From contig NZ_CP062008.1 in assembly GCF_005670685.2 (NCBI RefSeq), positions 1,612,001 to 1,676,000 on the forward strand: 64,000 nucleotides of DNA, written 5' to 3'. Of the stretch, positions 11,456 through 16,141 are shown in pieces; positions within the stretch are counted from its first letter, which is position 1, and every line of letters starts with the position of its first letter. Both the position numbers and the translations under genes were made by a program. This DNA comes from Mycolicibacterium mucogenicum DSM 44124 (lineage in GTDB: Bacteria; Actinomycetota; Actinomycetes; Mycobacteriales; Mycobacteriaceae). A model generated the notes under the pieces. It was given only the letters and a program-made list of their open reading frames with translations, was not told the DNA's origin and searched no databases.

Positions 11456-12415
11456 TCAGGCTTTGTCGGGCTTGCCCTTCGGGGCGGGGGATGACGTGTC
11501 TGACTTGGGCTTCTTGTTCTTGGATGCACCGTGTTGTGTTGCGGATGAACTCGATGGATCGCTACGGGGAGGCGCTTGCCGTCCCGGCTTGGGCGAGGTC
11601 TGAGGGTCCGCTGTGGGCAGCGTCGGATCCGGGCCCTCGGGCGTTCCGAGCGCCGTCGCGGGTGTGGTCTTGCCGGCTCTGGTGTTCGCGGGAGTAGTTC
11701 GCGTATTCGCCGGGGCCGGCGGTGCGCGGTGCGTCGTATCGGCCGCCGGGTCGGCGGTGGTGTCTGTCGATGCACCCGGTGCCGGGGCCGACAGGGGATT
11801 CACTGTGGCAACCGGGGCGGGCGTGCCGGCTGCGGTCGCCGCCAACGGCAACACGGCTCTGATGGTGTTGAACACGGCAAGGCCGATCACGAAAGGTGCG
11901 ACAACGACGGCCCCCAGGATCATCGCCGGTACGGCCAGCTGCGGTACGGCCTGAAAAATGGGGAACTGCTGCAGGAATCCGCCGGCGATGAGCGCCGAGA
12001 CGAAGAAGACTCCGACCGCGCTCAAGGCGATCGTGGCGGGGATGGCTGAGATGGCGGCGACAATCTGGTCCGGGGTCGGAAGTGGCGGCAGGCTCGGCAG
12101 GCTGAGCGCGGCCGTGGGTGTGGGTACGACGGCGGCGGTCGGGCTCGGTGCGGCCATGGTGCCGGCCGAGGTCGGCGTCGGCGTCGGCGTCGGCTTCGGA
12201 TGGACAACCGCGAACTGCTGTTGCAGATCGCGCTGTACGGAGTTCAGAACCGTTGACAGCGAAGTGAATTGGACCACCGTCACACCTGCTTGCCCGGTGG
12301 CGGCCGTGGCCGGCGCCGCGATGAGCGGATGTGTCACCTGAGCCGCGGCCAGGATGCCGACGGTGATGGTGGCGCACCCGACGCGGTGGACGTTCGAGAT
12401 GTGGTGTGCGGTCAT
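11456..12415 (-). CDS. Exported Pro/Thr-rich membrane protein
   Basis: 319 aa, function unknown. The start at 12415 has a strong GAGGAGG upstream; the open frame to 12487 lacks one. The N-terminus looks like a signal peptide (GCATITVGILAAAQ...PATAATG). Residues about 75-110 are Pro/Thr repeats (KPTPTPTPT). Two to three hydrophobic helices lie at about 130-205 (ALSAVGVFFVSALIAGGF, AMILGAVVVAPFVIGLAVF). The last about 110 residues are a disordered Pro/Thr/Lys-rich tail. It is divergent from the secreted beta-propeller-like gene and begins the envelope island between clpP2 and clpX. Confidence 0.72.
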   Translation of the reverse strand: MTAHHISNVHRVGCATITVGILAAAQVTHPLIAAPATAATGQAGVTVVQFTSLSTVLNSVQRDLQQQFAVVHPKPTPTPTPTSAGTMAAPSPTAAVVPTPTAALSLPSLPPLPTPDQIVAAISAIPATIALSAVGVFFVSALIAGGFLQQFPIFQAVPQLAVPAMILGAVVVAPFVIGLAVFNTIRAVLPLAATAAGTPAPVATVNPLSAPAPGASTDTTADPAADTTHRAPPAPANTRTTPANTRAGKTTPATALGTPEGPDPTLPTADPQTSPKPGRQAPPRSDPSSSSATQHGASKNKKPKSDTSSPAPKGKPDKA

Positions 12416-12520
12416 GGCTGCCTCCTCGGGTGGATGTCGGCGGGCGCCCTCAGCGCGGACCGTTCCTGTAATTGTCGCGTGCGTCAATGACTGCTGTCTT
12501 CAGTCGATCGCCGTATTTGG

Positions 12521-12539
12521 CACCAAGAATCCGCCAAGG
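12521..12539. promoter_or_regulatory. CCAAG direct-repeat element, copy 1 (candidate SARP site)
   Basis: CACCAAGAATCCGCCAAGG holds CCAAG at 12523 and again at 12534, exactly 11 bp apart. It differs at one base from the element at 15448-15466. A weak -10-like CACCCT (12549-12554) follows after 9 bases, the same spacing as at the other copy. SARP regulators are known to bind heptamer repeats with an 11-bp period just upstream of the -10, and an EmbR-like SARP is encoded 1.8 kb away. Assignment to that protein is inference. Confidence 0.6.
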
Positions 12540-12595
12540 CGCCCACCGCACCCTGTGACGTGACCACGATCCCGGCCATTCGAACAGGACCTGCC

Positions 12596-13810
12596 ATGAA
12601 CCGACACTCCCGCCGCACCGCCGCCGCCCTGGCCACGGCCGCCCTGGCCGTGTCCTTGGCGGTCGGATTGCCGGTGGCCCAGGCGAATCCCACTCCCGAG
12701 GCCGCGATGCCGGTGCCGTGGAACCAGGTCGGTGACGGCTGGACGCTGGCCACCTGGAACCCGGTGGCCGGACGTCGCCCGGGCGAGCGGCCCGCGCCCG
12801 ACGAGGCGCCGCCCGCGAAAGCCGCCGACACGCTGTTCCTGATCGACCCGGCGGGGCACCGGTACGCCATCACGACATTCGAGCCGAACGACAAGGGCTG
12901 GAAGCCGCATCTGCTGGACTGGTCGGGTGACGGCGGTCGGGCATTGTTCTCGATGGGTGACGACACCGTCATCGTGGTCGATCTGCACACCGGCAACCAG
13001 ACGTCCTTCCCGACGCGCGCCTCCGCCCGTTTCAGCCGCCCGAACGGCCAGGCGATCGTGCTGTCGAGCAGCAGTCAGGACCAACCGAGCACCTTGCAGC
13101 GCGTCGACCTCGCCGGCAACGTGCAGCTGACCTACCCGACCGAGAACCTCGCCGGCGCCGGTCGATTCGGCGGCGACTACCTGGAAACACCCGACGGCAC
13201 GACGCTCGTGCTGTCGACGGCCAACCGGGGCAACGACGCGGCACCGCGAACGGACAACAGCTTCGTGCTCATGGGCAACGACGGCACCGTCGGGCGGGTG
13301 CTGCCGGTACCGATGCCCGGCGCCGTCTGCCGGACCACACGATGGCTGGCGCCAACGGATTTCGTCGCCAGTTGCACCGCGCAGAAGTCCGCCGGAAGCC
13401 AGCTGTGGAAGGTGCCGATCGACGGCTCGGCGCCGACCGCGCTCACCGCCGTCAACAACGCGAAGAACGAACCGGGATTCGACGGCGACTACGGCGATAT
13501 CGACGCCTGGCAGTTGCCCAGCGGCACCTTCGTGCAGTCGCTCGGTGCTTGCGGCGTCATCTTCCTCTCCCGCGTGACCGCTGACGGGCATACGCAGCGG
13601 GTCAAGGTGCCGGGTGCGGGTGACAAGATCGACGTCGTCGGGGCGTCCGGCGACTCGTTGATCCTGAAGTCGACGAGCGGCTGCAGCCCGTCGACGGCGC
13701 TGATGTCCTACGACCCCGCCGCGAATTCCACCAAGGTCCTGCTCGGCCCCACCGTGAACGACGGCCGCGTCGTCGACGCCATGACATTCGCGGAGGGCTA
13801 CCGGTCATGA
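12596..13810 (+). CDS. Secreted protein, beta-propeller-like
   Basis: 404 aa, exported, function unknown. A signal peptide is clear at residues 1-32 (RRTAAALATAALAVSLAVGLPVAQA). The body has repeated short beta-strand blocks with DxxG-type turns (LFLIDPAGHRYAIT, VIVVDLHTGNQTSF, SSTLQR-like, LWKVPIDG) such as those of TolB- or YncE-like propellers. Four cysteines in the second half (CRTT, ASCTA, GACGV, SGCSP) could form disulfides outside the cell. I chose ATG 12596; the frame opens at 12560 without a ribosome site. The CCAAG repeat element is 57 bases upstream. Its stop overlaps the next start (ATGA). Confidence 0.78.
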   Translation: MNRHSRRTAAALATAALAVSLAVGLPVAQANPTPEAAMPVPWNQVGDGWTLATWNPVAGRRPGERPAPDEAPPAKAADTLFLIDPAGHRYAITTFEPNDKGWKPHLLDWSGDGGRALFSMGDDTVIVVDLHTGNQTSFPTRASARFSRPNGQAIVLSSSSQDQPSTLQRVDLAGNVQLTYPTENLAGAGRFGGDYLETPDGTTLVLSTANRGNDAAPRTDNSFVLMGNDGTVGRVLPVPMPGAVCRTTRWLAPTDFVASCTAQKSAGSQLWKVPIDGSAPTALTAVNNAKNEPGFDGDYGDIDAWQLPSGTFVQSLGACGVIFLSRVTADGHTQRVKVPGAGDKIDVVGASGDSLILKSTSGCSPSTALMSYDPAANSTKVLLGPTVNDGRVVDAMTFAEGYRS

Positions 13811-14301
13811 GGCGGTTCGCGTCCGCACTGGTGGCCGTCGCTGCCGCGGCGACCCTGTCGCCGGCCGCGCACGCTGACGACCAGGTGACCACCGAGGCCT
13901 GCGGCTGGGTGCACCCCGACGAAGCCGCGGTCTTTCTCGACGGTCCGGCGACAGCCGAACCGATCCGGACCCAACTGCCTGAATTGTCTTGTGCCTACCG
14001 GGCATTCGACGAGCCACTGGGGCGGCGCAGCCTGGAATCCGATGTCCGGTTCGCCGATGCGTTCCCGTGGGACGCCGCAACGACATTCCGCCAGGTGGCC
14101 GAGTGGCCCAGGGCCACCGCGGTCGACGGCGTGGGCGTCAAGGCGGTCTGCACGTACGAACCGAATGTCACGCCGCCGTCGACGACGCTCACGGTGCTGT
14201 TGACGGGCGAACGGATCTATCGCGTCACGGGCAGCTACGTGTGGCGCTGCGAAACGCTGAAGACGTTCGCCGAACTGGCAATAGCCCGCATCGGCCGATA
14301 G
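13807..14301 (+). CDS. Small secreted protein
   Basis: 164 aa with a classical signal peptide (residues 1-24, ending in AAHADD). The mature part has cysteines at CGWVHPDEA, SCAYRAF, VCTYEPN and WRCETLK, spaced so that two disulfides are possible, resembling DUF3558-type mycobacterial exported proteins. No catalytic motif is recognised. The start overlaps the previous stop by 4 bases, so it is translated with the propeller-like protein and may act with it at the cell surface. Confidence 0.75.
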   Translation: MRRFASALVAVAAAATLSPAAHADDQVTTEACGWVHPDEAAVFLDGPATAEPIRTQLPELSCAYRAFDEPLGRRSLESDVRFADAFPWDAATTFRQVAEWPRATAVDGVGVKAVCTYEPNVTPPSTTLTVLLTGERIYRVTGSYVWRCETLKTFAELAIARIGR

Positions 14302-14320
14302 CACCCGATACCCTCGGCCC

Positions 14321-15442
14321 ATGCGGCCGACCGGAATCGATTTCGGTGTTCTGGGCACGCTGCGGATGGCCGTCGACGACCGCGTCGTCTCACTGGGCGC
14401 ACCCAAGCAGCGCGCGGTGTTCGCGATGCTGCTGCTGGGCCGCGGCCGCCCGGTGTCGGTGGATGCGTTGATCGACGCGGTGTGGGAGCAGTCACCGGCC
14501 GCGGCCGCCCGCACCGCGCTGCACTCCTACATCTCCAACCTCCGAAAGATCTTGGCGGAGTCCGGAATGCCGCGGGAGGCCCTGGCCGCCGCCCCGCCCG
14601 GATACCGGCTCGACGTGGCGGAGGACGCAACCGACCTGGGGCGCTTCGAGAAGGAGAAGCTCGCTGGGTTGCGCGCGGCGGCCGCCGGTCAGTTCCCGTC
14701 CGCGGCGGTACACCTGTCGGCGGCCCTGGCGCAGTGGCGGGGACCGGTCCTCGGCGATCTGTCCGACTTCGCTTTCGTCGACGCCGTCGCCGCCGCTCTG
14801 GTCGACGAGCGCATCTCCGTGGAGACCGCGCGTGCGGAAGCTGAAATCGCCTGTGGCCAGGCAGCTCTGGTGATCGGCCCGCTGGAGACCCTGGTCGCCG
14901 AACACCCCTACCGCGAACCCCTGTGGGCGCAGTTGATCACCGCCTACTACAGCTGTGGGCGGCAGGCGGACGCGCTCGACGCGTTCCGGCGCGTGAAGTC
15001 GATCCTGGCCGAGGACCTCGGTATCGATCCCGGCTCGGCGATAAGTGCCCTGCAGCAACGCATTCTGCGTCAGGAACCACTCGACGTTCAGGGCGCCGCG
15101 CAGGCGACGGCGGTGCACACCATCGGCCGGCTCCGCTCGGGCTCCACCCGGTCGACGGCGTCCAGGGCGGGCCTGCGCGACGCGTCCGGGCAGTGGTTTG
15201 CCCTGCGCGCGATGGCGACCCGGATCGGTCGCCAGGCCGACAACGACATCGTGCTCGACGCGGCAGACGTCAGCCGGCACCACGCCGTCATCGTCGATGC
15301 GGGCACCGGGCCGGTGATGGTGGATCTGCGTTCGGCCAACGGCGTATACGTGCAGGGCACGCGGATCGAGGCCAACACCAATCTGTTCGACGGCGACCGC
15401 ATCCGTATCGGCGCACATGAATTCACCCTCGAGCTCGGGTAG
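14321..15442 (+). CDS. EmbR-like SARP transcriptional regulator with FHA domain
   Basis: 373 aa with the EmbR order of domains: OmpR/SARP winged helix (about 5-105), bacterial transcriptional activator domain of TPR-like helices (about 110-255), then an FHA domain (about 290-370) with RIGRQADND, SRHHAVI and NGVYVQG motifs that bind phosphothreonine. In M. tuberculosis EmbR is phosphorylated by PknH and activates envelope genes; no Ser/Thr kinase gene is in this window. A -10-like TACCCT (14309-14314) ends 6 nt before the ATG, indicating a leaderless mRNA. The CCAAG elements before two flanking secreted-protein genes are its likely targets. Confidence 0.88.
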   Translation: MRPTGIDFGVLGTLRMAVDDRVVSLGAPKQRAVFAMLLLGRGRPVSVDALIDAVWEQSPAAAARTALHSYISNLRKILAESGMPREALAAAPPGYRLDVAEDATDLGRFEKEKLAGLRAAAAGQFPSAAVHLSAALAQWRGPVLGDLSDFAFVDAVAAALVDERISVETARAEAEIACGQAALVIGPLETLVAEHPYREPLWAQLITAYYSCGRQADALDAFRRVKSILAEDLGIDPGSAISALQQRILRQEPLDVQGAAQATAVHTIGRLRSGSTRSTASRAGLRDASGQWFALRAMATRIGRQADNDIVLDAADVSRHHAVIVDAGTGPVMVDLRSANGVYVQGTRIEANTNLFDGDRIRIGAHEFTLELG

Positions 15443-15447
15443 GAGCA

Positions 15448-15466
15448 CACCAAGAATCTGCCAAGG
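15448..15466. promoter_or_regulatory. CCAAG direct-repeat element, copy 2 (candidate SARP site)
   Basis: CACCAAGAATCTGCCAAGG, identical to the copy at 12521-12539 except for one base. CCAAG starts at 15450 and 15461, 11 bp apart. A weak -10-like AACCAT (15476-15481) follows after 9 bases and itself ends 6 nt before the ATG at 15488, so repeat, -10 and start form one compact leaderless promoter. Confidence 0.62.
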
Positions 15467-15487
15467 GCAGCGGCGAACCATGAGCGC

Positions 15488-16141
15488 ATGAGGATTTCGG
15501 TTCTTGCCCTGGCCGCGGCGGTGACGTTCCTGAGCGTCGCGCCGGCCGCGTCCGCTCAGCAGACGTGTGGTGCCCTGGGCGGGACGCCCGACGCCACCGG
15601 CATCTGCCGGATCCATGAGGTCGGCACCGGGTATGACCGGACCGTCGCCTTCCCGGTCGACTATCCCGACCAGCAAGCGGTCGCGGACTTCCTGGCCCAG
15701 GACCGCGCCGGTTTCGTCGGCTGGGTGGACGAGTTCGGCCGCGGCCGGGTGTACACCGAGACCGTGACGCCGACGGTGTACCGCTCGGCGCGGACCCAGA
15801 GCCTGGTGCTCAAGATCGTCGACCCGACGGGCCTGGCCCACGAAGGCCACCCCGACATCCGGTACCGGACCTTCACCTACGGAAATGGCGGGCCGATCAC
15901 CATCGACTCGCTGTTCGGGCCGGGCTCCGATCCGGCGGCGATTCTCACGCCGGTGGTGCAGCGTGCGTTGAAGGCGCGCAACGCCGCGCTGATCGAACCG
16001 GACCGTGGCTCGTACCGGAACTTCGCGCTCACCGACGAGGCCGTCACCTTCTTTTTCGGCGAAAGCCAGCTCGCGGGCAACGGTGGCCCGCTCACGGTGA
16101 CGGTCCCGGTGGATGAGCTGGGCGGTCGGCTCCAGGGATAG
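15488..16141 (+). CDS. Secreted RsiV/DUF3298-family protein, MPT64-like
   Basis: 217 aa with a signal peptide (1-23, ending ASAQQ). The mature domain has the MPT64/Rv3036c-type pattern: an N-terminal disulfide pair (TCGALGG...GICRIHE), VDYPDQQAVADFL, YRSARTQSLVLKIVD, HPDIRYRTFTYG, ITIDSLFGPGSDP, and a C-terminal DEAVTFFFGESQ. MPT64 is a secreted antigen whose biochemical role is unsettled; related proteins have been called esterases. The CCAAG element is its promoter signal. Confidence 0.82.
   Translation: MRISVLALAAAVTFLSVAPAASAQQTCGALGGTPDATGICRIHEVGTGYDRTVAFPVDYPDQQAVADFLAQDRAGFVGWVDEFGRGRVYTETVTPTVYRSARTQSLVLKIVDPTGLAHEGHPDIRYRTFTYGNGGPITIDSLFGPGSDPAAILTPVVQRALKARNAALIEPDRGSYRNFALTDEAVTFFFGESQLAGNGGPLTVTVPVDELGGRLQG

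Follow-up and report, generated by a model that had tools for sequence, protein, structure and literature searches.

In a 64,000-nucleotide stretch of the genome of Mycolicibacterium mucogenicum DSM 44124 (contig NZ_CP062008.1, positions 1,612,001 to 1,676,000; hereafter the window), a 19-bp element containing two CCAAG repeats occurs twice, each time shortly before a gene for a predicted exported protein, and the gene for an EmbR-like regulator of the SARP type lies between the two copies. We consider it highly probable that the element is the operator of this very regulator. Judged from sequence, the element would work as SARP boxes of the AfsR type do, and both domains and sequence place the regulator in the EmbR subfamily. 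The features concerned, with their positions in the window, are as follows.

12521..12539, + strand: putative operator 1 (CACCAAGAATCCGCCAAGG), direct repeats CCAAG at 12523-12527 and 12534-12538
12549..12554, + strand: -10-like hexamer CACCCT of promoter 1, with transcription expected to start at about 12561
12596..13810, + strand: gene 1, predicted exported TolB-like beta-propeller protein of 404 aa
13807..14301, + strand: gene 2, small exported cysteine-containing protein with no Pfam family, overlapping the end of gene 1
14321..15442, + strand: putative activator, EmbR-like (OmpR-type DNA-binding domain, BTAD, FHA), 19 bp past gene 2
15448..15466, + strand: putative operator 2 (CACCAAGAATCTGCCAAGG), direct repeats CCAAG at 15450-15454 and 15461-15465
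15476..15481, + strand: -10-like hexamer AACCAT of promoter 2, with a leaderless start expected at ATG 15488
15488..16141, + strand: gene 3, exported Rv3036c/MPT64-like protein with DUF3298

Operators and activator in the window and its genome

As the original prediction had it, the two 19-mers differ at a single base within unrelated flanks. Both lie on the + strand. In each of them CCAAG recurs after exactly 11 bp (12523/12534 and 15450/15461), and the -10-like hexamers, CACCCT and AACCAT, each begin 9 bases past their 19-mer. The pattern CCAAG-N6-CCAAG, present twice in the window, averages 0.07 occurrences in 100 dinucleotide shuffles, none of which reaches two, and 19-mers with at most three mismatches number two against 0.00 expected. 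Operator 2 begins 5 bases 3′ of the activator stop codon, and ATG 15488 is the 7th base past the AACCAT hexamer, matching the need of a leaderless message. Both sites display the arrangement by which SARP promoters are recognized, namely repeats with a period of 11 bp or 22 bp and a 3′ repeat near the -10, which bears out the layout of the SARP-type operator that had been proposed.

The gene between the two copies encodes an OmpR/PhoB-type DNA-binding domain (Trans_reg_C, 36.1 bits) followed by a BTAD (155 bits), both above the Pfam cut-off, which is the domain order of SARP regulators. It also has the C-terminal FHA domain (66.5 bits) with R, S and N that distinguishes the EmbR subfamily; its RIGR, SRHH and NG motifs align with 2fez, and we take these three residues to be the phosphothreonine-binding ones. 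The closest solved relative is EmbR (2fez/2ff4, 446 bits), followed by AfsR (113-116 bits, in the SARP domain). Pfam and the structure matches together thus confirm the EmbR-like SARP-FHA gene that had been read from the letters. The recognition helix is H68-S-Y-I-S-N73, in which S69 and N73 align with T88 and R92 of AfsR, given as base-contacting in the excerpts of PMC10936776 that cover this helix. The H-S-Y-[IV]-S-N helix is encoded once in the genome, at 1626522, within the window gene; a second full-length homologue with 53% identity (4055121-4056218) carries the helix S-A-Y-V-S-N.

The likeness to AfsR extends to the promoter. In Streptomyces coelicolor, the afs box consists of 11-bp direct repeats from -40 to -19, over the -35 region, and is followed by a weak -10, CACTGT (PMC10936776, in excerpt). 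The window repeats would also lie over the -35 region, from about -38 to about -17; their 3′ repeat likewise comes within a few bases of a weak -10 (CACCCT here), and a repeat taken as the heptamer CCAAGnn yields 8 bp to the -10, as in the same excerpt of PMC10936776. The SARP domains are homologous, and their DNA-contacting residues align. The two systems differ in the repeat, which is CCAAGAATCCn in the window, in the replacement of T88/R92 by S69/N73, in the presence of FHA instead of NOD/TPR, in a third repeat copy that is often present here, and in their targets, which are exported proteins here and antibiotic genes for AfsR. With EmbR of Mycobacterium tuberculosis, for which a crystal structure (2fez/2ff4) and kinase data exist, the activator shares the domain order (residues 6-372), the HSYxSN helix and the aligned FHA residues; it differs in its genomic setting, the clp region, where no kinase gene adjoins it.

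A search of the 6.10-Mb genome and of the genus for the box, as had been suggested, recovered a fuller form of the site; the bare CCAAG-N6-CCAAG is unenriched in the genome and was dropped as a definition, its count there falling below the reversed control. The full form, CCAAGAAnCnnCCAAG-N11-AnnnT, which includes the inner AAnC, has five perfect matches in the genome, none with one mismatch and three with two, and the reversed control gives four matches at up to two mismatches. The five perfect sites lie at 12523 and 15450 of the window and at genome positions 2046390 (+), 3082459 (+) and 5045838 (-). Their hexamers, in this order CACCCT, AACCAT, CACCCT, CACCAT and CATGCT, all start 10 bases past the second CCAAG. 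Behind all five lie genes with predicted Sec-type N-termini, encoding beta-propeller, Rv3036c-like, DUF6636-like (26.8 bits, slightly below the cut-off of 27), small FNPQPEPP and small cysteine-containing proteins. A site at genome position 286218 (L001) was judged to be chance because CCAGTC occupies the expected -10 position.

Sites and recognition helix across the genus

We extended the analysis to 248 Mycobacterium genomes. The strict form of the site occurs 197 times in 81 of them (reversed control 3), and the relaxed form, RAGRAWYYNYCAAG-N10-SAnnnT, 443 times in 114 (reversed control 6). EmbR homologues (E 1e-80 or better) were detected in 132 genomes, and they are present in 108 of the 114 genomes with relaxed sites versus 24 of the 134 without (Fisher 4e-38, kinship ignored). 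The association becomes more specific at the level of the recognition helix, which was sought with a nucleotide pattern encoding H-S-Y-[IV]-S-N-x-R that admitted some serines via a degenerate codon pattern; four genomes whose sole match reads H-T-Y were dropped. Sites occur in 101 of the 107 genomes with an HSY-type helix versus 13 of the 141 without (Fisher 1e-46, kinship ignored), and, within the homologue-bearing genomes, in 101 of 107 with this helix versus 7 of 25 without it. The 24 site-free genomes with a homologue yielded 29 readable EmbR proteins, 22 of which have non-HSY helices (HTH, HVY, HAY, HTY, HAH, QAY) and seven HSY.

Among 80 named embR loci, boxes are found on at least one side of embR in 38 and on both sides in nine, and slow growers with boxes beside embR include M. 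gastri and M. szulgai. A matrix scan gives 82 matches of at least 11 bits in these loci, which may include sites used to build the matrix, versus 3 for the reversed matrix. One of the ten loci with a QAH-type EmbR has a box, and a weak one. More generally, EmbR proteins with HTH, HVY or QAH helices are mostly found without the operator (L276-L280, L283-L289, L291, L292; L054, L067 and similar), and these subfamilies may read other repeats. In 263 genomes from elsewhere in the order, 13 isolated matches turned up, spread over 11 genomes, versus 4 in the control, which we take as chance; in the same scan, 14 of 35 genomes of the genus had matches.

Seven species carry the activator at an identity of at least 88%: that of the window, L032, L033 (the same genome as G204 and counted once), L046, G206, G149 and G157. 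Operator 2 is retained in all seven, whose activators are 88-97% alike or identical, with that of G149 one base off the strict pattern. Operator 1 is retained in five (window, L032, L033, L046 and G206); it is not found in G149 and G157, which are also without genes 1 and 2. In these two the activator lies about 0.15 kb or less past the second Clp protease, where genes 1 and 2 cannot fit. Box and hexamer persist between species while the adjacent bases vary. The original prediction was to be given up if the element were missing upstream of the orthologous genes, and in the related species this was checked and found not to be so.

The spacing is fixed as well. A scan of the 80 embR loci with the repeat columns only gave 72 sites, and xAnnnT stands exactly 10 bp on in 47 of them and 21 bp on, one further period, in 16, whereas any other distance up to 29 is represented 0-6 times. 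Downstream genes and start codons were analysed for 150 of the 197 strict sites. Start codons (ATG or GTG) peak at offset 22 (24 of 150), followed by offsets 27 (10) and 23 (9), against a mean of 3.2 over offsets 24-89; the counts at offsets 11 and 14 were set aside as artefacts of fixed pattern letters, and eight of the 24 starts at offset 22 come from one gene family. This peak falls where a leaderless start is expected, and with offset 22 taken as +1 the repeats would lie at -38 and -27, near the AfsR box. By its composition, the hexamer is a weak -10: 94% of the 150 sites have C or G at its position 1, and 1% have T. A degenerate third copy of the repeat is apparent directly upstream of the pair at these sites. 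Three strong copies of CCAAGAATCCn in 11-bp register are seen at L071:9127, L039:10954, L171, L181, L209 and L252, and such triples suggest binding by three protomers.

Mechanism and competing explanations

From these sequence relations, we infer binding, activation, autoregulation and FHA gating as follows. Two, sometimes three, protomers would sit side by side between about -38 and -23, each on its own 11-bp repeat (CCAAGAATCCn), and would replace the missing -35 contact. The housekeeping RNA polymerase could then use the weak -10 ([C/G/A]AnnnT) 10 bp downstream, as described for AfsR in the excerpts of PMC10936776. In the genome of the window, the activator would switch on five exported-protein promoters and would probably raise its own level via operator 1, and its FHA domain may gate it through a phosphothreonine partner.

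Several observations speak against this reading. The genus figures are raw genome counts in which shared ancestry is not corrected for, and the matrix of the repeat scan was derived from hexamer-selected sites, some of them perhaps from the same species. Homologues occur in 24 genomes without a relaxed site, two of which (G137 and G152) have one strict site each, and six site-bearing genomes have no detected homologue, including G008 (5 sites, 70% complete) and G089 (4 sites, 92% complete). Six genomes carry the HSY helix and no site, the EmbR helix of L061 is HAY, yet there is a site nearby, and 33 of the 70 embR loci with non-QAH helices have no box of at least 13 bits near embR. In the genome of the window, moreover, the bare CCAAG-N6-CCAAG is found six times, versus ten in the reversed control.

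These points bear on what else the element could be. The operator might be read by another regulator that is co-inherited with EmbR-family genes or, in the genome of the window, by the paralogue of 53% identity (4055121-4056218), with the window gene no more than a target. The existence of this second full-length homologue and the six site-bearing genomes without a detected one fit such a view. We nevertheless regard it as unlikely, given that the paralogue has the helix S-A-Y-V-S-N and a locus without a box (best score -6.6 bits), that the sites track the HSY helix at a base-contacting position, and that they bracket the window gene and its orthologues and, in the nine named loci, embR itself. 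The constant distance to the -10-like hexamer would also suit a promoter of an alternative sigma factor, with CCAAG-N6-CCAAG as its -35 region and no activator. The exact 11-bp repetition, the degenerate third copy and the full triples in some loci suit a repeat-binding activator instead, and together with the co-occurrence with the EmbR helix they make the sigma-factor promoter very improbable. Chance, or a dispersed repeat element, draws on the bare-form count below its control; we give it still less credence, in view of the unrelated flanks, the five perfect sites with none at one mismatch, the 443 sites in the genus against 6 in the control, and a box and hexamer that are kept while adjacent bases differ.

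A broader reading suggests itself, for and against which we see about equal weight. The main mycobacterial job of EmbR-type SARPs would then be a family-wide operator code and not embCAB: two or three tandem CCAAGAATCCn repeats would fire a weak -10, often leaderless, at genes for exported proteins and further small ones, as well as at the operon of the activator itself. Target sets would be swapped freely between species, and another residue at position 69 would go with other operators. Since the operator is sharply defined and has a recognition residue to match, promoters can be predicted in many species, within reach of ordinary binding and expression assays. The way in which AfsR activates, familiar from the control of antibiotics in Streptomyces, may accordingly be in wide mycobacterial use.

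Targets, neighbouring genes and the Emb loci

BLAST sorts the open reading frames (ORFs) behind the 150 sites into 55 clusters, several large ones of which show no signal peptide. When several in-frame starts are tried by a crude heuristic, 65 of the 150 look exported; the comparison figures are 7 of 50 for window genes (p 1.5e-4) and 39 of 124 for genes from ten embR loci (p 0.046). The small regulon of exported proteins that had been suggested is thus upheld in the genome of the window, with its five promoters, but does not describe the genus, for which the notion that every target is exported was dropped. In the window's own ortholog group, an exported-looking gene follows 18 of 19 sites (19 of 27 strict sites, five genomes). 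Elsewhere in the genus, the operator precedes genes without a signal peptide in L116, L127, L129, L174, L207, L213, L219, L251 and the L121 cluster, and in the L116 family the start codon stands at offset 22 in eight of eight. The box precedes a DUF732 gene in L071, and in L074 a kinase gene follows embR.

In the window, the genes for trigger factor and two Clp proteases come first and are followed by a divergent gene; then come operator 1, genes 1 and 2, the activator, operator 2, gene 3 and clpX. Gene 1 most likely starts at ATG 12596, which was chosen because the other candidate, GTG 12560, has no counterpart in G206 and lies in another frame in L032. The beta-propeller fold proposed for its product agrees with a predicted model (mean pLDDT 83.3), whose top Foldseek matches in the PDB are TolB proteins (E 5.5e-10, TM about 0.4). 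The MPT64/Rv3036c-like character of gene 3 is likewise supported, by the NCBIfam esterase Rv3036c model (149 bits, below the cut-off of 200) and by DUF3298. Operator 1 probably drives genes 1 and 2 together with the activator as one operon; since the operon would include the activator, positive feedback through autoregulation may be expected from gene order. As to the PknH-type kinase control that had been suggested as possible, Pfam finds no kinase among the six neighbours of the activator, which sits in the clp region, and no kinase catalytic-loop motif occurs in the long frames of the window; seven PknH_C stretches lie elsewhere in the genome. The divergent gene that adjoins operator 1 (11456-12487, - strand) encodes a proline-/alanine-rich protein with no Pfam family, and the divergent ORF at the same place in G206, as called, looks different. 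Downstream of embR, the promoters of many of the loci L039, L053, L061, L065, L071, L085, L098, L107 and L110 have GATGTCA just after the hexamer. Its ATG precedes the expected transcription start, and GATGTCA may therefore be a promoter or leader element.

EmbR was proposed to act on embCAB. In PMC9239209, deletion of embR left embCAB unchanged, and the abstract of that study describes the in vivo regulon of EmbR as unresolved. No published EmbR operator was found among the papers listed by searches of an open-licence library. At the four Emb loci of the genome of the window, taken with 1.5-kb flanks, no operator was found, the best score being 8.4 bits on the opposite strand versus 30.7-40.1 at the five sites; the boxes of this genome thus give no support to the embCAB role ascribed to EmbR. 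The fourth arabinosyltransferase (PF04602) of this genome, at 2191360-2192733 on the - strand (L311), lies apart from the three-gene cluster at 5.72-5.73 Mb.
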